A program made the translations under genes and the position numbers. Below, in pieces: positions 22,795 to 59,582 of a DNA stretch of 64,000 nucleotides. Position 1 is the first letter of the stretch, and each line of letters starts with the position of its first letter. Source of the stretch: Desulfomonile tiedjei (lineage in GTDB: Bacteria > Desulfobacterota > Desulfomonilia > Desulfomonilales > Desulfomonilaceae); assembly GCA_016218715.1 (NCBI GenBank), contig JACRDG010000112.1, positions 124,001 to 188,000 of the forward strand, read 5' to 3'. The notes under the pieces are model-generated. The model ran no database searches and was not told the DNA's origin. It was given only the letters and a program-made list of their open reading frames with translations.

Positions 22795-22945
22795 ATATAT
22801 ACGGTATCTCCGTTGGAGTCCCTGCTCTTGGCTGTTTAGTGGGACCGGCATCTTGCGGGTCACTCTTCCGAAGCGAGTCCCTTCCATCGGCGCTATTCCG
22901 GTGGCCGAATCCTGGCTGCTCGCATGGGTGCCTCTGCTGGCTTGC
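22795..22945 (+). repeat. Dispersed repeat family A, copy 1
   Basis: The copy runs from ATACGGTATCTCCGTTGG through GGACCGGCATCTTGCGGGTC to CGCATGGGTGCC and GGCTTGC. The whole stretch aligns with the reverse complement of 59440-59582, and its first half with 41532-41590. Confidence 0.8.
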
Positions 22946-23000: not shown

Positions 23001-23140
23001 TTTCACAAGTTCGGTCGCGCATTTCGGGGGCCTTGGTGGGACAGGCATCTTGCCTGTCGTTTCTGAATGGGCCGGCAAGATGCCGGCCCCACTGAACAAC
23101 CAAGAACCGGCCCAGGAGCGACACCGTATTTACGAAATCC
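23001..23140 (-). repeat. Dispersed repeat family A, copy 2
   Basis: It starts with CACAAGTTCGGTCGCGC, carries two palindromes (ACAGGCATCTTGCCTGT and GCCGGCAAGATGCCGGC) and ends with GACACCGTATTTACG. It is the most complete copy with both ends and aligns to the reverse complement of 41532-41672. Together with copy 1 it fills most of the gap between the glycosyltransferase and SGNH genes (22747-23158), which has no gene. Confidence 0.85.
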
Positions 23141-24303: not shown

Positions 24304-26247
24304 TCAATGGATGGAACGGAGGCTCTTTCCGTAGAAGTTTTCTCGCGGCGATCCCCATACGTGCGACGCGCCGGAGTTGAGCTTTATGCCCGACAGATGC
24401 AAGGTAGAGATGAGTCCGCTGGACCACGGATCCTTGACCGGACGCCTCGATCGGCCGTTCAGTGCTGTCCATCCAGTGACGCGGTCGGGATTGGAGCGTA
24501 GCGACGACGCGCCCTGCCATTTGATGCCCGAGCGGACGACCGGCCCGCCCGCTGCGATCTGGTCGAGCACGGCCATGGAGGAATCCTTGCGGCCGAGGAT
24601 GAGGAGCCGGTCGTAAGGTATCGGTCGGTCCATCGGCACCCCTCTCGTAACAAACCCATCCGTACAAGCGACTGCCTGATGGAACAACCGGTTGGGCGGC
24701 GTCGAGGCATCGGGATAGAGATACCACGCGGCAAGATCCCGCTGCGAGTAGAGCATCCGCATCAGTTCTCTCAGGCCGTTCCAGCCGCGGAAGATTGCCG
24801 CCCGGCCCGCCGAAGATTCAAGGTCGAGGAAGACGAAGTTGGTCCCGGGTCTTGCTGAGGGGACCTGGCTGATGAGGCTCCGTACCAGGGCGTTCCGCAC
24901 TTCCGCGGCCTGCTGCCAATCGTTGGCGAGGCCGACATGGAAGAGGGCCATGGCAGCCACCGCGACGATTGCGGCCACGCGTGCGGCAGCACGCACTCGC
25001 GGGTGTTTCCATCCCGTCACGAGCGACGCGAGCAGCATGGCGAGCCCGAAGGAGCCGGAACTGTAAATGCGGCTGGACCAGTTGAAATTGAACCACGCGG
25101 TATAACCTTCCGGGATCGAGCCCCATTGTATCGAGGCTGATTCGGCAATTTTAGGCGTAACAGACCCATATCCCGCAAGTTGATAGGGGAGCAGCCCCAA
25201 CACGAGAACCACCCCCGCGACCAGCATCAGGTACGCGCGGCTGTCCAGAAATCCATGTTTGCGCTGAGGCTCTTCGCGCGTCGAGCGGACAGCGAACAGG
25301 ACCATCGCGGTCCATCCTGCCACCGCGGCCGCAAGCAGCCAGGCCCGGACATCTCCGGAAGCGATCGCCGCAAACGGTTCGGCCACATAGAAAGGAAGGA
25401 GAGCCAGGTAAGCCCAGATCAACTCCCATTGCGGCAGCACGGAGCTGTGGCTCACCGCCCCGCCGCTCAAGAGGAGGAATCTGAGGGAGACCGCCAGGAC
25501 AAACCCGACTACCACTGCACCGCCGAGCTTCGCGAGGAACGCCCTATCATCTCGGGCGCACACCGCGCGCAAGTCTTCAGTGGGGCCGGTATCTTGCCGG
25601 TCCTTCTTCCGATCTTCGCCGGCGCGCAGCCGCGCGGGTATCGTCAGAAGCGGGACCGCAAATATGAGGAAACTGGGCGCTTCGTACGTGAGGAAGGACA
25701 GGATGTAGGCTGTAATAGGCGGAAACAGGCCCTGCACGGTCGCTGCGCCTTGCGCCCACCGCTGAAACAGCAACGCGCTCGCCCAAAAAAAGAGCAGGCT
25801 CAAACGGGAATTGTCCGTGGTCACGACGTAGGTCAATGACGAGACCGTGGGGAGGAAGAAAGCGAACGAGACCGCTGCTGCCACGAACGCCCCGCGTGCG
25901 GGGAACGCCCTTGCGAGACAGAGCCCCATGAGCAGGCTGGCGCCTGCCAGGAGCAGGAGCGAAAACAGATGGAAGGCAATCTTGTTGAATCCGAAAAACT
26001 CGAACAGGCAGATCCAGTAAACCCCTTCCACCGGCCGCAGGCAATCTCGTGCGTATGCCCAAATTGAATGCGGAAACGCGTGCCAGTAAGGCCAGCTAAA
26101 GATCCACCAGTCGTCGCCCTCGAAACCGATGTCGCCGGTGATGGCGGTCAAGGCCATGGCGTAGCAGACCAGTCCCGCGAAAACGAGGTACGGAACCGAT
26201 CCTATACCGGCCGTTTCGCCGGTCCGGCAACCGACACTGCTCTCCAT
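24304..26247 (-). CDS. Polytopic membrane protein, GT-C glycosyltransferase-like
   Basis: A 647-residue protein with about ten predicted membrane helices in the first two thirds and a soluble C-terminal part (about 450-647). The first outer loop has GDIGFEGDDWWIFSWPYW, and an acidic pair at this place is usual in GT-C enzymes that use lipid-linked sugars. It would act in the inner membrane on polysaccharide or glycolipid. Residues encoded by 25574-25620 (KKDRQDTGPTEDL) derive from a dispersed repeat inserted in frame. Both neighbours on this strand and the cluster after it fit surface-sugar work. No conserved motif proves the activity. Confidence 0.65.
   Translation of the reverse strand: MESSVGCRTGETAGIGSVPYLVFAGLVCYAMALTAITGDIGFEGDDWWIFSWPYWHAFPHSIWAYARDCLRPVEGVYWICLFEFFGFNKIAFHLFSLLLLAGASLLMGLCLARAFPARGAFVAAAVSFAFFLPTVSSLTYVVTTDNSRLSLLFFWASALLFQRWAQGAATVQGLFPPITAYILSFLTYEAPSFLIFAVPLLTIPARLRAGEDRKKDRQDTGPTEDLRAVCARDDRAFLAKLGGAVVVGFVLAVSLRFLLLSGGAVSHSSVLPQWELIWAYLALLPFYVAEPFAAIASGDVRAWLLAAAVAGWTAMVLFAVRSTREEPQRKHGFLDSRAYLMLVAGVVLVLGLLPYQLAGYGSVTPKIAESASIQWGSIPEGYTAWFNFNWSSRIYSSGSFGLAMLLASLVTGWKHPRVRAAARVAAIVAVAAMALFHVGLANDWQQAAEVRNALVRSLISQVPSARPGTNFVFLDLESSAGRAAIFRGWNGLRELMRMLYSQRDLAAWYLYPDASTPPNRLFHQAVACTDGFVTRGVPMDRPIPYDRLLILGRKDSSMAVLDQIAAGGPVVRSGIKWQGASSLRSNPDRVTGWTALNGRSRRPVKDPWSSGLISTLHLSGIKLNSGASHVWGSPRENFYGKSLRSIH
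25574..25620 (-). repeat. Family A repeat fragment inside a coding sequence
   Basis: The plus strand reads GTCTTCAGTGGGGCCGGTAT then CTTGCCGGTCCTTCTTCCGA, matching the centre of family A copies at 22835-22870 and 41573-41600. It is read through in frame in the membrane-protein gene and encodes an extra hydrophilic loop. Confidence 0.75.
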
Positions 26248-35385: not shown

Positions 35386-37968
35386 TCAAGGTTCCTCATC
35401 CGCGGTGGCGGAACCGCCCTGTCGCTCAGCAGTTCGCCCACACTTCACCACCAATGTTTTCCCGTTGGTTTCCATGGTCACCGCACCATCTCGACCGGTC
35501 CAGTAAATGGTCGTACCGGCGGATTGGAGACGTTCGAGGACCTCGAGTGACGGGAATCCCTTCACGCGGGGATAGTCGCATGAAATAACGGCTACTTCAG
35601 GCTGCACAGCCTCGAGGAAACCCCTCGATGTGGACGTCCTCGAGCCGTGGTGGCCCACCTTCAGTACCCGCGCGCGCAGAGGAATCCCTGTTGCGATGAG
35701 TTCTTCTTCCGCTCCGCGAGTCATGTCACCGGTGAAGAGGAACGAAACCTCGCCGCATTGGATCCTGCACACAACCGACGCGTCGTTCATCTCGTTCGAG
35801 GAACCGGCATGCAACTCCTGGTCTCGCCGCGGATTCAGGAATCGCATCGTCGCGGTTCCGAGGGTGACGGGTTCGCAGGCCCGGTCGGCGCGAGCGATCG
35901 ACGCTCCCGCTCTCGCGGCTTCGGCCAGAATGTGTTCCACATAAGGCGGGGATGGCTCCACCGGATTCCACCAGATTTGACGTGGAAGAACTTCAGGAAT
36001 TACGGAGAGGAGGCCGCCCATATGATCCATATCGGGGTGTGAGATCATCATCCCGGCCAGACCCCGTGTCCCGTTCCATCTGAGGAAAGGCAGGATGACA
36101 CTCCGGCCCGTGTCGAAATAGTCATTAGCGAGACCGCCGTCGACAAGGACCCCCTGTGAGCCGCGAGGCTGCACCAAAGCAGCATCCGCTTTGCCCACAT
36201 TCAGGAAGGTTACCTTGAGAGCGGCGTCTTTGGCCCAGGAGCCTGGTGAGAAGAACACCACCCCCACACACGATACAGCGGCCAGAGAAAGCCCGAGCAA
36301 AGAGCGCCGAGACGGGTTCCCGACGAACCAGAAAAAACTCACCACGATACCCCAAACGAAAAGCCATTCCAGTCGGTCGAGGCTTCCTGTCTGAAAGGTG
36401 CTCCAGGGGAGTCGCGTAAAGAATTCGGCCACTTTGATCATTCCGTAGACGAGCGCATCTGCCGCAAACAGCACCAACGACCCCAGGGACGGCCAGACAA
36501 ACCCTATAATGCCGCTCAGCAGTCCGAAACCCAGCGCAGGAGCCATGAGAGAGCACCCTGCAAGATTCGCGGGAAGCGTGTACACCGGGAGGTAGCGGAA
36601 ATGGTCCAACAGAATGGGGGCAAGCGCCACTGTGGACATGAGCGAGGTCAGCAGCGTCGCAGCAATGGCATAGCCGGTCTTGTGTAAGAATCTCTGCGGC
36701 CGAGTCAGGTCGCCTTCGATGTGCCACGCGTTGAGCCTTTCGGCCTGCCCCTTCTGGAGGAGGCGCATCGCGGGCACAACCCCGAGAAAGATTCCTGCTA
36801 CTGCGCCGAATGAGAGTTGAAAGGACGCGGTGAACAATGACAGGGGATAAATAAGCAAGGTAATAAGGCCAGCCAGAGCGAGGTTGTTGAACGAGGCCCA
36901 CCTCTTCTCGAATATCATTCCAGCAGCGATGACGCTCCCCATGATAGTGGCCCGAATGATAGGGACCCGCGCTCCCACCAGCATGCAATAAGCCGCGACG
37001 ACCGGCAGGGAAACAAGCGCCAGGAGCTTTGTCTGCGGTAGACGAAGCAGGATCTCGGGCATGCAGCGACAGAGGAGCCTCACCAGCGTCAGGACCAAGA
37101 GGACGACGATGCCGACGTTGAGTCCGGAGGCTGCCAGCGTGTGAGCCAAACCGGAATCGGCAAAATCCTTCCTCACCTGATAGCTTACTTCCGCGAGGTC
37201 CCCCAGGACGACACCCTTCACGATGGCCCGCACATCAGCGAGGCTTTCCTCAGGGACAAAGTGTCTTAAGTAGAGCCCTGAATGGGCGTCTATGAACTGA
37301 GACATGGACTGACGTGCCTCAAAGAGCACGGCGTGGGGGTTTAACCGCGATCCTCGCTTCACTAACAGAACAGAATCCGGCCCGGCAACGGATGCCAACC
37401 ACGATGTCCCGTCTTGCTTGCAGTAGATTTCCCAATCGAATTCCCCGGGATTCATCCGGTTGGTCGGTTTGCGCACACGAGTGCGGAACGCGATGCGATC
37501 ACCCGCGCTGAGCGTTATAGGGTTTTGTCTGAGAAAAAGCCTCCCATATCCTGGTAAGGGACTCCGTTCCGTGTCGTTGTATCCGTCTGACACGAGGAGG
37601 ATTCGGAACTCCGGGCCAGTTCCGATAGTGCTGGACACCGTGGCGTACACCGAGCACTTGGAGGCGGGTGGAGCAAAATCCGATCCGAAGTTCAGGTCCT
37701 GGGCACACAGACGGATACCCAAGAAAAAGAAGAACATAGCGACGGAACACCAGAGGAGCAGGACCCGGCGGCGATTCAAGGCAGGCAGCAGGATAACCAA
37801 CGCCAATCCCAGCCCATATAGGGGCCACGGCCCATCCGAGAGCGCCGACTCTTTGGCCGCGTAGATGCCGCCGGAAAGGCAGACAACGGCTACAGTAGAA
37901 GGGTAGCTCCCTGCGATCCGACTGGTCGCGGCGATGAGAGATTGCCATCGATCTTCGGAAATAAACAC
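35386..37968 (-). CDS. comEC: ComEC/Rec2 DNA internalisation protein
   Basis: The inner-membrane channel for single-stranded DNA in natural transformation. At 860 residues it has the full layout: N-terminal membrane and DUF4131 region (1-230), the competence domain (about 240-540; SGLAHTLAASGLNVGIVVLL, ARVPIIRATIMGSVIAAG) and a C-terminal metallo-beta-lactamase domain (about 600-850; FLNVGKADAALV, SHPDMDHMGGLL, KVGHHGSRTSTS). All metal-binding motifs are intact, so it should be functional. GTG 37968 follows AGGA. The rest of the competence set is absent, but a DprA-like gene and a prepilin peptidase lie 2-4 kb away. Confidence 0.95.
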   Translation of the reverse strand: MFISEDRWQSLIAATSRIAGSYPSTVAVVCLSGGIYAAKESALSDGPWPLYGLGLALVILLPALNRRRVLLLWCSVAMFFFFLGIRLCAQDLNFGSDFAPPASKCSVYATVSSTIGTGPEFRILLVSDGYNDTERSPLPGYGRLFLRQNPITLSAGDRIAFRTRVRKPTNRMNPGEFDWEIYCKQDGTSWLASVAGPDSVLLVKRGSRLNPHAVLFEARQSMSQFIDAHSGLYLRHFVPEESLADVRAIVKGVVLGDLAEVSYQVRKDFADSGLAHTLAASGLNVGIVVLLVLTLVRLLCRCMPEILLRLPQTKLLALVSLPVVAAYCMLVGARVPIIRATIMGSVIAAGMIFEKRWASFNNLALAGLITLLIYPLSLFTASFQLSFGAVAGIFLGVVPAMRLLQKGQAERLNAWHIEGDLTRPQRFLHKTGYAIAATLLTSLMSTVALAPILLDHFRYLPVYTLPANLAGCSLMAPALGFGLLSGIIGFVWPSLGSLVLFAADALVYGMIKVAEFFTRLPWSTFQTGSLDRLEWLFVWGIVVSFFWFVGNPSRRSLLGLSLAAVSCVGVVFFSPGSWAKDAALKVTFLNVGKADAALVQPRGSQGVLVDGGLANDYFDTGRSVILPFLRWNGTRGLAGMMISHPDMDHMGGLLSVIPEVLPRQIWWNPVEPSPPYVEHILAEAARAGASIARADRACEPVTLGTATMRFLNPRRDQELHAGSSNEMNDASVVCRIQCGEVSFLFTGDMTRGAEEELIATGIPLRARVLKVGHHGSRTSTSRGFLEAVQPEVAVISCDYPRVKGFPSLEVLERLQSAGTTIYWTGRDGAVTMETNGKTLVVKCGRTAERQGGSATADEEP

Positions 37969-38137
37969 TTGATCATCCTGGCTCGGAATGATAATCGAAG
38001 TCGAGGGTTCGTGCGGGAACCGGCCGTTGGAATTCGGACCCGTTTGTCGCGGTGAACGGCTCGGGTCGGCCGCGATAGCCGAACAACCGGAATTTCACAC
38101 AGATTCGGTCGGGGAACAAGGGGATTCTCAGTCACGA

Positions 38138-38935
38138 ATGACAGGTAATGCAGGTTTGACCACGGTCATGGAATCTTTTGGTGCATATCTCAAAGGCCTT
38201 CGCGAAGAAAAGGGCAAACCCATCGAGGAGATCTCGGACAGCACCAAAATAGCGGTCTCGAATCTCCAACTCTTGGAGACGGATCGGTACGACCTGCTCC
38301 CGCCACGCGTGTTCGTGAAAGGTTTTATCCGATCGTACGTGCAGGATCTCGGTTTGGACCCCGACGAGGCCCTCGCGCGTTTCGACGAATTCACCAAAGA
38401 CGGAGAACTCCCCGATTATGCGGGTGAGGAGCACCCGGTGTTCTATCAACAGTCCGCGCCGCTGTCGTTCGTGCGAAGCCCGTGGTTCACACTGGGGCTG
38501 ACTGTGGCCGGATTGATGTCATTGAGCATTCTACTCGTCACAGGAGCCAGTCGATTGTTTTTCCCCGCGCATGGTACAGCGACAAGCTCGGTCACGGTAA
38601 CCACAGTGGAACCGTCCAAGCCCACTTCCCCCGGTGCCCGGGTGGAATCGGAGGAACAATCGCTGTCCGGGGCGCTCCCGGAAACGGCCTCCAATCATGC
38701 GGGAAAAAAGATTCTCGAAATCAAGGCCGTGGCCAATGCTTGGGTCAGGGTGGAACCTGACAACGGGCCCGCAGAAGAACTGATGATGGCGCCCGGAGAG
38801 GTGCAAATTTTTACGGCCCGATCGACATTCAATTTGCAAACCGGCAACGCGGGCGGATTGCGCCTTCGCTTTGACGGCAAGGAACTGCAGACCCTGGGAA
38901 AGACCAATCAGACGCTCTCGTTGACCTTGCCGTGA
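38138..38935 (+). CDS. RodZ-like membrane protein with HTH domain
   Basis: A 265-residue protein. A cytosolic helix-turn-helix (SFGAYLKGLREEKGKPIEEISDSTKIAVSNLQLLE, then LPPRVFVKGFIRSYVQDLGL) is followed by one membrane segment (FTLGLTVAGLMSLSILLVTGA) and a periplasmic DUF4115-type beta domain (LEIKAVANAWVRVEPDNG ... LRLRFDGKELQTLGK). This is the RodZ layout; RodZ ties MreB to the membrane in rod-shaped cells. No mre genes are adjacent. ATG 38138 has a weak site; ATG 38168 is also possible. Confidence 0.85.
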   Translation: MTGNAGLTTVMESFGAYLKGLREEKGKPIEEISDSTKIAVSNLQLLETDRYDLLPPRVFVKGFIRSYVQDLGLDPDEALARFDEFTKDGELPDYAGEEHPVFYQQSAPLSFVRSPWFTLGLTVAGLMSLSILLVTGASRLFFPAHGTATSSVTVTTVEPSKPTSPGARVESEEQSLSGALPETASNHAGKKILEIKAVANAWVRVEPDNGPAEELMMAPGEVQIFTARSTFNLQTGNAGGLRLRFDGKELQTLGKTNQTLSLTLP

Positions 38936-39026
38936 ATCGAGAGCAGACCTGACCGACGACTTGGGAGGCGGTTCCTCCGACTTCGTGGCCGTAAAGTATC
39001 GACACCAACTTGGAACTGGAACTCTG

Positions 39027-39368
39027 ATGAATGCATTCTTTAAGAAGCTTCTCCTTGTCATTCCGATTCGCGACCAGGAAGACCTCATGTCGGTGGTGAA
39101 TTCGGAAGGATGGTACACGCTCGCAGATTTGTTCAAAAAAACGTCCACTTCATACAACAGCCATTGGAACGGTAACTACGCTCTGGATCAAGACGAGATT
39201 CCGTGGAAAGTGACGCAGGAAGAACTGACCTCCCTTCAAGAATCTTCAGGCCAAGTCGTTGCGATCATAGACGCCAAGTACTGCCGTTCCGAACGGATAC
39301 CGCTGTACACGGACAGGGATGGGTCCGTTTACGTGCTGGAAGAGCATGTGGCGCACTTCTTCGCCTGA
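39027..39368 (+). CDS. Hypothetical protein
   Basis: A 113-residue protein I do not recognise. It is well composed (MNAFFKKLLLVIPIRDQEDLMSVVNSEGWYTLADLFKK), with an ordered mix of helices and strands and no low complexity, and no membrane segment or signal. The start at 39027 is in frame; the ribosome site is weak. It lies 90 bases after the RodZ-like gene and just ahead of another small gene. Confidence 0.5.
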   Translation: MNAFFKKLLLVIPIRDQEDLMSVVNSEGWYTLADLFKKTSTSYNSHWNGNYALDQDEIPWKVTQEELTSLQESSGQVVAIIDAKYCRSERIPLYTDRDGSVYVLEEHVAHFFA

Positions 39369-39392
39369 ACGACCGTGGAGAGGAGCCTGATC

Positions 39393-39596
39393 GTGCGACA
39401 TACCAGACCGAGATTCCGAATTCGAGCCAGATTGTCGGCGGTCCAGCGCAGGCGGAAAGCCGTGGAGTTCATGGTGAGTCTCGCATCGTCCGAACCCAAC
39501 GGGTTCTTCCTGTTCAGAAAGCGGAATCCGTTCGCCAACCGGGTGCGCGACCGGGAACGGGCTCTTCTGGAGGAGACCGAAGAACAGAAGCCCTGA
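39393..39596 (+). CDS. Small basic hypothetical protein
   Basis: A 67-residue protein rich in Arg (RHTRPRFRIRARLSAVQRRRK), ending in a charged helix. AGGAG lies seven bases before GTG 39393, a good spacing; GTG 39375 is also in frame. It could bind nucleic acid, but there is no recognised motif. Confidence rests on the ribosome site and close spacing to its neighbour. Confidence 0.45.
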   Translation: MRHTRPRFRIRARLSAVQRRRKAVEFMVSLASSEPNGFFLFRKRNPFANRVRDRERALLEETEEQKP

Positions 39597-39895: not shown

Positions 39896-41521
39896 GTGAC
39901 CGCGGATCGAACATCGACACATCTGTTTACTGCAGCCCTCCTCTCCGTGCGCGAGGATCTCTCTCACCATTCACGCTCGTTGGTCATTTCCCGTACACAC
40001 CCATTCGACATTCATTCGCGCGACGAGACGATCAGCGGGTTAGCAGAGGCCTTCGGCGAATCCGACCTTGATTTCTCTCCGACGCGGCATGCGCGACCGC
40101 AGACCCTGTACAAGGCCGGAGAAATTTCCACCCACTGGCTCGCTCAGGGAGTTTCTGTGCTGACGCTGGAGGACCTGCACGCCCCACAGGTCTCCATGCA
40201 CCCGGTTCCTCCTGTGGTCTTCGCTCACGGAAACCGCTCGATCCTGAATCTGCCCGCAGCCATGGTGCTCAACTCGCGAACTCGTCGGCTGGTGACCGCG
40301 CAGGACCCATGGATTCTCGCAACCAGGCAGATGGTCGAGTTCGCGTTCCAACAGGGATTCGCTCTGGCATCGAGCTACGGCACCATCCCTTATTCCGTTG
40401 CGACCCGGTTGGCAAAAAACCGGCCGGTGCTCATCGCGTGTGATGACGTTCTCCCATTCATGAAAGGGAAGGAGGAGGAGGAACGTTTTCTGCACCGGTA
40501 TGGCGATCTCTTCGACATAAAGAACACGCTGTTTCTGTCCACGTTTCCTCCCGGCCGCGTACCAGCAGCAAAGTACAGACGAACCGAACGGGATCACCTG
40601 GTCGCCGCGACGTCGTCTCTGCTCCTGCCCGCGGGCGTGAGGCCTGGTGGAAACATGGCGTCGATCTTGGAAATCGGCCAGCGACGCGGGGTGCACATTG
40701 CTTGTGCCTCAGCCAAGGATCAAGAGAACAACTCGGCAACAGCGTGTCCGCCTGAGCAGAACAACTCTAGGAGGCGGAAGCGGCCCGAACAGAAGCCCGC
40801 CACTCGTCAAGGGACCCCGGTAGAGGACCGCGATGCGTCCTCAAGAGGATCGGCATCTTCCTGGCCACTAGCACACGAGGGGACGCAACGAGAGAATTCC
40901 CAGGCTTTATTGCAGCCCCCAAGCCCCGAAATCCTGCGGGAAGCCGACACACTGGCCCGCACAAGAAGGTACCTCGTCCACTATACTCGATCGTGCCCCG
41001 GCCCATGGCCCGGACAGACTCTCGCAGATTACTGCGACGGCCTCATCGAAGACCGGCTTCTTGCCAATCACACGGCGTTCGACACGCTCGGGAGGATACT
41101 CGAACGAGGCGTGATCCACGGCGCGGGCCGGTTCACCCGCGGCGGTTTGCCCGTTGTATGCCTCACGGAGCTGTTTCCCGAGGAACTCCGGGAAGTAACG
41201 CGCTGGCGCCCCGGTTTGTTGCGTTGGTCCTTTGAACCGTACGGCATAGCCTTACCGAAGAGCTGCCTGTTCGCGATGGGTGCTCGACCGGTCATCTACG
41301 GAGTTGAGAAGGCCTTCGAGGACCTCGGACCGGACCTCATCCACCTCTTCCAGGTCCAGCGAACCGGAGGAGCCAACTGGGCAGTCGAGAAAGAATGGCG
41401 GATCGCAGGCGACCTGCGGCTCGCCGGACCGGTTCTGGACGAGATGTTTGTTCTTGTCCCGTCGCGGGCCGAAGCGCGCGTGGTGGCAGATCGGTTCGGC
41501 TGTCGCGTGGTTGTGGCTTAG
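39896..41521 (+). CDS. DprA/SLOG-like domain fused to an AbiG-like C-terminal domain
   Basis: A 541-residue protein with two domains joined by a Gln/Arg/Pro-rich linker (about residues 285-340). The first part (about 60-275) resembles the Rossmann-type SLOG fold of DprA-like proteins: VVFAHGNRSILN, FALASSYGTIPYSVATRLAKNRPVLIACDDV, and ATSSLLLPAGVRPGGNMASILEIGQRRGVHIA. The second (about 350-541) resembles the AbiGi/DUF2971-like abortive-infection family: FTRGGLPVVCLTELFPEELREVTRWRPG and YGIALPKSCLFAMGARPVIYG. Both calls come from pattern memory. The best comparison is to nucleotide-sensing defence proteins. The GTG start at 39896 has no strong ribosome site. Confidence 0.6.
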   Translation: MTADRTSTHLFTAALLSVREDLSHHSRSLVISRTHPFDIHSRDETISGLAEAFGESDLDFSPTRHARPQTLYKAGEISTHWLAQGVSVLTLEDLHAPQVSMHPVPPVVFAHGNRSILNLPAAMVLNSRTRRLVTAQDPWILATRQMVEFAFQQGFALASSYGTIPYSVATRLAKNRPVLIACDDVLPFMKGKEEEERFLHRYGDLFDIKNTLFLSTFPPGRVPAAKYRRTERDHLVAATSSLLLPAGVRPGGNMASILEIGQRRGVHIACASAKDQENNSATACPPEQNNSRRRKRPEQKPATRQGTPVEDRDASSRGSASSWPLAHEGTQRENSQALLQPPSPEILREADTLARTRRYLVHYTRSCPGPWPGQTLADYCDGLIEDRLLANHTAFDTLGRILERGVIHGAGRFTRGGLPVVCLTELFPEELREVTRWRPGLLRWSFEPYGIALPKSCLFAMGARPVIYGVEKAFEDLGPDLIHLFQVQRTGGANWAVEKEWRIAGDLRLAGPVLDEMFVLVPSRAEARVVADRFGCRVVVA

Positions 41522-41531
41522 TACACTTTTT

Positions 41532-41672
41532 TGCAAATACGGTGTCTCCATTGGGGTCCCCGTCTTTGGCTGTTCAGTGGGGCCGGATCTTGCCGGTCCA
41601 TGAGGAAATGACGGGTAAGATGCCTGTCGCACCATGCTCCCTGAAATGCTTGACCGAACTTGCGAAACCGAG
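41532..41672 (+). repeat. Dispersed repeat family A, copy 4
   Basis: The stretch starts AATACGGTGTCTCCATTGG, passes GTGGGGCCGGATCTTGCCGG and ACGGGTAAGATGCCTGTCGC and ends with TTGACCGAACTTGCGAAACC. It aligns with the reverse complement of 23001-23140 over its length. The rest of the gap to 41986 holds no gene I can support. Confidence 0.85.
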
Positions 41673-41986
41673 CACTCGGTACTCCGAAGCGAAGATGCGG
41701 TGGAAGGATTTCAACTGTTCCAGCCCAGGACATAATGCTATAGTGAAGCGTCCCGAGGATCGGGGATGGGTTGCATAAGGGATAGGGACTCGGTTCGGCC
41801 GTGCTTCCCCCAATCTCTGGGCGCTAGCCTTCCGAGCCGCTCGCGACCGGAGTTGAGCGAACATGAAGGAAGGCACGATTAGGACGTTGAATAAACTTGA
41901 ACGGTAACGGTTCTCCGCGAAAAAAGCACTCCCTCGAACTGACTATGGGGGATGGTGCCTGAACGGATGGCATTTCGGCTACGTTG

Positions 41987-42826
41987 ATGGAAACTCATCT
42001 ACATCTATTTATCGCAATATCGTGCTTCTGGTTCGGAGCAATCGTGGGTAGTTTTCTGAACGTGGTCATTCTTCGCCTCCCGCGGGAAGAATCGCTGGTA
42101 CACCCGCCGTCCCGGTGCCCTCATTGCGGGCATCCGATACGAGGGTACGACAACATTCCGATCGTCAGTTATCTGTTTCTCTTGGGAAAATGTCGTGACT
42201 GTGGGGGCCGGATTTCTGTACGGTATCCCCTGATAGAAGCCGTCACGGCAATGCTGGCAACGGCCTTGTATCTGAAGGGCGGAATTACCCCGGCTTCGGG
42301 AGTCTTCTTTCTCTTCTGTGCGGCCATGGTCGTAGTCTTCTGGATCGACTACTACCACATGATCATTCCGGACGTCATTTCCTTGAACGGCCTAGCCATT
42401 GGGGTCATCGTATCCACAGTCCAGTGGATTCCGGGCATGACATGGAGCATTTCTCTGCTCGGCGCACTGACCGGAGCCCTCATCCTCTACGTGCCAGCCG
42501 TGATCTACGAGAAGGTGCGCGGGGCGGAGGGATTAGGCCTCGGTGATGTCAAGCTTCTGGCCATGATGGGGTCTTTCCTTGGCCCAGTCGGTGTCGTATT
42601 CGTCCTGTTCTTCTCGTCCTTGACGGGCTGCCTTGCCGCGCTCATCGGCCTCCTCCGGGGCGCGCATTCGGCGACCCCCATTCCTTTCGGGCCCTTTCTC
42701 ACCGGCTCGGCAGTGCTTTACGTTTTCGTAGGATCCGACGTCATCGACTATGCAGCGGAACTCTCATTCCGATTTTGGGCCATGTTCGTTACGACCGCGG
42801 GATGCCCCATCTCTCTTCCTCTGTAA
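41987..42826 (+). CDS. pilD: Type IV prepilin peptidase / N-methyltransferase
   Basis: Cleaves the leader of type IV prepilins or pseudopilins and methylates the new N-terminus, in the inner membrane. The 279-residue protein keeps the cytosolic zinc-type pairs C44-x2-C47 and C69-x2-C72 needed for methylation. The aspartyl protease acids are D121 or D129 (DYYHMIIPD) and D187 (GLGDVKL). It has eight membrane segments. No pilin operon is adjacent. ATG 41987 is chosen; TTG 41984 is also open. It may serve pili used by ComEC-dependent DNA uptake. Confidence 0.93.
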   Translation: METHLHLFIAISCFWFGAIVGSFLNVVILRLPREESLVHPPSRCPHCGHPIRGYDNIPIVSYLFLLGKCRDCGGRISVRYPLIEAVTAMLATALYLKGGITPASGVFFLFCAAMVVVFWIDYYHMIIPDVISLNGLAIGVIVSTVQWIPGMTWSISLLGALTGALILYVPAVIYEKVRGAEGLGLGDVKLLAMMGSFLGPVGVVFVLFFSSLTGCLAALIGLLRGAHSATPIPFGPFLTGSAVLYVFVGSDVIDYAAELSFRFWAMFVTTAGCPISLPL

Positions 42827-59439: not shown

Positions 59440-59582
59440 GCCGGGTAAGCCGGCAGCGGCTCCCATGCAAGCAACATGGATTCGGCCGCCGGAGTGGTGC
59501 CAATGGAGGAGAGTGGCCGGCAAGATGCCGGCCCCACCCAACGGCCAAGAGCAGGAAGGTCAAGGGAGACACGGTATTGCGA
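59440..59582 (-). repeat. Dispersed repeat family A, copy 5
   Basis: On the minus strand it reads GGGCCGGCATCTTGCCGGCC, then GGCCGAATCC and GCATGGGAGCC, in the same order as copy 1 at 22795-22945. The plus strand starts CCGGGTAAGCCGGCAGCGGC and ends GGGAGACACGGTATTGC. It lies between bioA and bioD. Confidence 0.85.

Follow-up and report, generated by a model that had tools for sequence, protein, structure and literature searches.

Can a DprA-like regulator and the enzyme it controls be carried on one polypeptide? To our knowledge, every DprA-like antitoxin described so far sits next to a separate toxin. The question is raised by a gene of Desulfomonile tiedjei, a member of the Desulfomonilaceae in the phylum Desulfobacterota, in a 64,000-nucleotide stretch of a 203-kb contig (the window, that is, the whole stretch of DNA analysed). 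A sequence-only reading had placed an open reading frame at 39896-41521 and proposed that its product joins a sensor to an effector. The frame exists as described (plus strand, GTG start, 541 amino acids), and on the fold and profile evidence gathered for both domains, a sensor-effector fusion is still its best reading. Both domain calls were right although no Pfam or NCBIfam model matched the window protein and PADLOC gave a weak PsyrA match alone (E 0.04).

The gene is a single copy in the 5.55-Mb genome. Of the 18 Desulfomonilales genomes, 17 (all 11 genera and 8 of 8 good-quality genomes) encode homologues that have the two halves, at 28-45% identity, and dN/dS is 0.18-0.35 in eight close pairs, so the frame is beyond chance, and it is under purifying selection. 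The full-length AlphaFold model, built with 17 sequences, has a mean pLDDT of 80.8, with most of the N-terminal half above 90 and residues 2-272 confident. No description of a DprA-like plus ADP-ribosyltransferase (ART) architecture was found in the searchable literature, including that on DarT with DprA, AbiG with ART and DUF2971, most subscription journals and preprints lying outside the search, which leaves this negative result weak. The fusion looks like a self-contained DNA-stress or anti-phage switch of an undescribed kind and not like a mobile defence gene. The features of the gene and its neighbourhood are collected in the table.

Features of the fusion gene and of its neighbourhood, in window coordinates; residues are those of the fusion protein
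Feature	Position	Strand	Basis
DprA-like/ART fusion gene, 541 aa, GTG start	39896..41521	+	ORF; homologues in two orders; AlphaFold model pLDDT 80.8
DprA-like domain, residues 2-281, helical N-terminus and Rossmann/SLOG core	39899..40738	+	ShosA 8zva Z 19.4; Foldseek; hhalign; residue census
Predicted disordered, variable linker, residues 273-342	40712..40921	+	pLDDT <50; gapped in alignment
ART-fold domain, DarT/AbiGi-like, residues 350-541	40943..41518	+	pLDDT 87.8; DarT Z 7.3-7.7; AbiGi E 2.5e-12
H362-Y363-T364, candidate NAD+-binding strand motif (cf. DarT1 H17-F18-T19)	40979..40987	+	invariant 36/36
GPWPGQ motif, inside ART-domain insertion	41000..41017	+	in almost all fused forms, in no stand-alone relative
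R415, candidate counterpart of DarT1 R52 / DarT2 R51	41138..41140	+	invariant 36/36; by sequence order, not superposition
E498-x-E500, candidate catalytic glutamate motif (cf. DarT1 Q150-x-E152)	41387..41395	+	invariant 36/36
comEC	35386..37968	-	Pfam Competence; conserved neighbour in Desulfomonilaceae only
rodZ-like gene	37988..38935	+	Pfam HTH_25 and RodZ_C; conserved neighbour by synteny
h135, 135 aa, between rodZ and small ORF	38961..39368	+	48-66% identity in every covering family locus
Small basic ORF, 73 aa or ~67 aa from GTG 39393, directly upstream of fusion	39375..39596	+	synteny
Prepilin peptidase, pilD/comC type	41984..42826	+	Pfam A24_N_bact and Peptidase_A24; synteny

The N-terminal part, likened to DprA/SLOG Rossmann domains from the sequence alone, has a full-length DprA-like fold. 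Among solved structures, its best match is the antitoxin ShosA (8zva; Z 19.4, 253 residues, rmsd 3.6). DprA structures come next at Z 15-17 (the first of them at 17.4), then the LOG, YpsA and ThsA SLOG proteins, and Foldseek gives E 6e-10 for the fold. In an hhalign alignment with the genuine DprA proteins of the same genomes (E 2.8e-7, residues 77-256), the NSR loop (126-128) falls on the GSR-type loop of DprA, and RD (232-233) falls on the RNR site. In the residue census, S127, D233 and R249 do not vary among 34 sequences, and R128 and R232 are among the conserved residues. Pfam DprA (PF02481) matches 8 of the 34 homologues, the best at 1e-6, and TIGR00732 matches 7; the window protein lies below the curated PF02481 cut-off and two homologues (G009 and G002) lie above it. 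Several homologues are matched by PADLOC models (PsyrA best 1.6e-7, ShosA best 2e-3), and a profile HMM search of the PDB gives weak matches to chains of ShosA and DprA (E 0.014-0.026).

Nearly every genome, that of D. tiedjei studied here among them, has a genuine dprA at another site, which makes the fusion a DprA paralogue. The fusion shares the fold and N-terminal layout of canonical DprA (PF02481/TIGR00732) but has altered GSR and RNR loops and lacks the winged-helix C-terminus. Since the DNA-contact loops are altered (NSR for GSR and RD for RNR), the sequence suggests that the ligand may be a nucleotide in place of ssDNA. The DprA-like half can also be much smaller. In Hydrogenedentota (L095:3617-4600) and Lindowbacteria (L099:5407-6534), it is shrunk to a short SLOG core, with the ART fusion kept.

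The C-terminal domain was modelled alone with 36 sequences (pLDDT 87.8). After realignment, the top seven PDB structures are all DarT (Z 7.3-7.7, 126-139 residues); Tpt1/KptA, Rhs ART toxins and PARPs come below, and all the high-ranking structures have the ADP-ribosyltransferase fold. The DarT scores of 7-8, obtained with a predicted model, should be read as moderate. Foldseek alone is weak for this domain (best E 0.028, to DarT1), and a BFVD fold search gave weak matches to viral proteins. Fold comparison, which the sequence-only reading had put forward for residues 60-275 and 350-541, found both domains, one DprA-like and one ART. An identity with Tpt1/KptA was set aside because its Z is lower than that of DarT. 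We know of no E-x-E motif in Tpt1.

By sequence profile, the nearest family is AbiGi (PF10899; hhalign probability 97.7, E 2.5e-12), in agreement with the AbiGi-type end named at the outset. The two are homologous and have the motifs HFT, PMVCF, YG-YGIG, NPV-Y and E-[RK]-EWR in common, but AbiGi is a stand-alone protein of ~250 aa, and the fusion misses its Pfam cut-off of 22.4, as do even the stand-alone relatives, which score ~16. These relatives, just under the cut-off, bridge both, which suggests that AbiGi is an ART-fold family. The homology offers AbiGi, an abortive-infection family, a testable activity. The profile also meets DUF2971 (PF11185) faintly: the motifs HYT, FSxS/T and WxxE-x-EWR are common to both, at an E of 1e-4 that is not a significant family match. 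There is no sequence-profile link between the C-terminal domain and DarT (hhalign probability 0.2), the DarT profile PF14487 has no match in the fusion's own genome, and a C-terminal profile search of PDB sequences gave no match.

The candidate active site is constant. In 36 homologues from several phyla, the invariant residues are H362, Y363, T364, G369-P372, R415, Q486, E498, E500 and R502, and E500 is the first residue of a predicted strand. In DarT1 of E. coli C7, H17-F18-T19 contact NAD+, alanine mutants of R52 and E152 are inactive, and Q150 lies two residues before E152 (PMC11543638). Judged from the order of the motifs and their secondary-structure context, and not from a superposition, H362, R415 and E500 are candidate counterparts of DarT1 H17, R52 and E152. 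The fusion and DarT (as in DarTG and DarT-NADAR) have in common the ART fold and the H-[F/Y]-T and Q/E-x-E catalytic-type motifs in the same order, but there is no detectable profile similarity, and the fusion adds an insertion that contains GPWPGQ. This insertion follows HYTR and is degenerate in three loci (L164, L166 and L167). Its limitation to fused forms is as expected if it touches the partner domain. GPWPGQ served as the pattern of one collection scan, and the profile searches were run without it.

What could such a protein do? The reading we prefer, which we consider to have about an even chance of being right, is a regulated ART on a single chain, either a cis-fused toxin-antitoxin or a DNA-stress switch. 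The DprA-like domain, of the ShosA/PsyrA SLOG type, would bind ssDNA or a nucleotide and keep the C-terminal ART domain inactive. The ART domain would take NAD+ via H362-Y363-T364 and R415 and transfer ADP-ribose with E500 as the catalytic glutamate, the target most likely being nucleic acid. When the sensor meets abnormal ssDNA, as from replication collapse, phage replication or incoming DNA, the inhibition would be lifted and DNA metabolism arrested.

A single-chain switch is suggested by the behaviour of DprA-type antitoxins and sensors together with that of DarT. In shosTA, psyrTA and rqlHI, a DprA homologue acts as antitoxin or sensor and the effector is a separate protein (PMC9122126). 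Protection from phage is conferred by a pair of DprA and a PRTase, for which the same authors suggest that phage DNA is sensed by DprA, which then activates the effector (PMC9122126). DarT modifies ssDNA (PMC11543638). The fusion resembles ShosTA, PsyrTA and RqlHI in its full DprA-like antitoxin fold and, as proposed here, in its logic of sensor or antitoxin plus effector. In those systems, however, the effector is separate (ShosT is a phosphoribosyltransferase and PsyrT a RecQ-like helicase), whereas in the fusion it is an ART in cis; they are also genes of phage hotspots, and the fusion is a core chromosomal gene. That the ART stays fused even to a DprA part pared down to a short SLOG core also counts for the switch, as do the low dN/dS, the invariant catalytic-type residues and the confinement of the GPWPGQ insertion to fused forms. 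A more specific form can be offered only tentatively: the DprA-like half would detect ssDNA and directly free the DarT-like half onto that DNA, in a core gene of two orders, and by the same homology AbiGi would be an ADP-ribosyltransferase. With the ART fused in cis, sensing, inhibition and effector activity become testable in one polypeptide.

The distribution of the gene is harder to reconcile with a switch of this kind. Within the order, the relatives are in Desulfomonile and Desulfomonilaceae MAGs. A first sample of 42 genomes outside Desulfomonilales held no fusion. In the scan of genome contigs, a single-protein query gave no match and an alignment query gave homologues: the fusion is in the Syntrophobacteraceae Desulfacinum hydrothermale DSM 13146, D. 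infernum DSM 9756 and Desulfoferrobacter suflitae, and also in single MAGs of Schekmanbacteria, Hydrogenedentota and Lindowbacteria. Across Syntrophobacterales, it is in 35 of 39 genomes, nearly always as one copy, in frames mostly of ~480-590 aa. The maximum-likelihood tree sets the Syntrophobacterales (100/99) apart from Desulfomonilaceae and the three other phyla. The fusion is a vertically inherited chromosomal gene, near-universal in two orders of sulphate reducers.

This near-universal vertical conservation is atypical for a toxin-antitoxin or defence gene and counts against the switch. The moderate DarT scores with no profile link to DarT, the altered DNA-contact loops and the want of an adjacent antitoxin or ADP-ribosyl hydrolase weigh against it too. 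The conservation gives rise to the competing view, and the main uncertainty, that the fusion is ordinary DNA-processing machinery: the ART would modify nucleic acid, tRNA or protein as a normal step in processing or repairing DNA, and the DprA-like part would only recruit it to ssDNA, with no toxicity or defence. The single copy in two orders, the vertical tree, the housekeeping genes around it (rodZ, pilD and comEC in Desulfomonilaceae; ychF, obg and others in Syntrophobacterales) and the second structural neighbours, Tpt1/KptA, which are housekeeping-type RNA enzymes, all point that way. Even so, we regard it as rather unlikely. For each half, the nearest relative of solved structure belongs to a toxin-antitoxin system, the sequence diverges fast (~30-45% identity within one family), and, as in toxin ARTs, the E-x-E motif does not vary. 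For the regulated ART, its occurrence in almost every species of the two orders suggests that apparent toxin-antitoxin modules can turn into core cell biology.

Stand-alone relatives of the C-terminal domain are found as well. Its profile matches 28 of 385 genomes of the phylum; the matches are the fusions and roughly 12 stand-alone relatives, most of them 186-311 aa long. Loci L151-L161 (e.g., L159:4252-4809) encode stand-alone HFTR...E-x-EWR proteins in other families of the phylum, bridging the ART domain of the fusion and AbiGi. In another locus (L162:3721-4989), a protein of 423 aa has an N-terminal relative of the ART-like domain joined to DUF4427 (Pfam E 8.5e-26).

In Desulfomonilaceae, the gene order is fixed in the loci long enough to tell: comEC on the opposite strand, then rodZ, h135, the small ORF, the fusion and pilD, with one exception (L031) in which the prepilin peptidase is elsewhere on the locus. 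The sequence-only reading had put comEC 2 kb away, and it lies 1.9 kb upstream. One could consider that the fusion is an accessory of competence, a divergent DprA that handles ssDNA imported by ComEC, with the ART marking or rejecting foreign ssDNA. It is fixed beside comEC and pilD in this family, very near pilD in some loci, it has the DprA fold, and DarT-type ARTs act on ssDNA (PMC11543638). Yet no comEC or pilD was seen near the fusion in the loci of Syntrophobacterales or the other phyla, and a genuine DprA is elsewhere in nearly all the genomes, so we hold this to be quite improbable. The competence-locus neighbourhood belongs to one lineage only. Homologues always in housekeeping positions with competence genes had been named beforehand as the finding that would speak against a defence candidate; such a position is found in Desulfomonilaceae, and since the Syntrophobacterales copies are not beside competence genes, the fusion is not simply a competence gene. 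As a regulated ART, it bears on why non-competent bacteria keep DprA paralogues.

The sequence-only reading had also proposed to survey homologues for a conserved fusion and a defence-island context; the fusion is conserved, and the defence-island reading is not supported. The gene is near-universal, vertical and single-copy among housekeeping neighbours, and no clear defence genes were found beside it, contrary to the idea of an accessory gene. When 111 neighbours were scanned with PADLOC, the matches were scattered (mad3, mad8, AriA, RtcR and PDC-S10), and none of the matched genes is a neighbour conserved alongside the fusion. The matches traced to their genes, those of RtcR, are to a generic sigma-54-type AAA regulator. 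No PRTase or RecQ-like toxin gene adjoins the fusion, whose neighbours are rodZ, h135, the small ORF and pilD, and there is no macrodomain (DarG), ADP-ribosyl hydrolase or antitoxin partner beside it; the only macrodomain of its own genome is remote, on another contig. This sets it apart from DarT, whose partner is DarG or NADAR, whereas the fusion, with neither adjacent, has a DprA-like regulator. Viral contigs scanned with the C-terminal domain and tblastn against phages and plasmids gave no fusion, and the plasmid search found weak matches to stand-alone Streptomyces plasmid proteins only.

A vertically fixed form of the single-gene defence put forward in the sequence-only reading, in which phage ssDNA or SSB complexes would trigger the ART and bring about abortive infection, is for these reasons improbable: mobile context, defence island, phage copies and full-length plasmid copies are all missing, and presence in nearly every species is unlike the usual defence gene. 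In its favour are the relationship to AbiGi and the ShosTA-like systems of DprA plus effector, which guard against phage (PMC9122126).

The immediate flanks hold some smaller features. The small genes and the repeat copy noted beside the fusion are real, but the view of them as accessory cargo does not hold for h135 and the small ORF, because their gene order is conserved across the family. No Pfam model matches h135. The small basic ORF has the motif NKPRFRL..RL...KRRRK, is 48-73 aa long and has an equivalent in 13 of 14 Desulfomonilaceae loci; we know of nothing similar. Between the fusion and pilD lies a dispersed repeat (41529-41667) that is a 79% match to 23001-23137, with shorter pieces in the window at 22799-22861, 25576-25603 and 59517-59578. 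The translation of this repeat includes TGKMPV.
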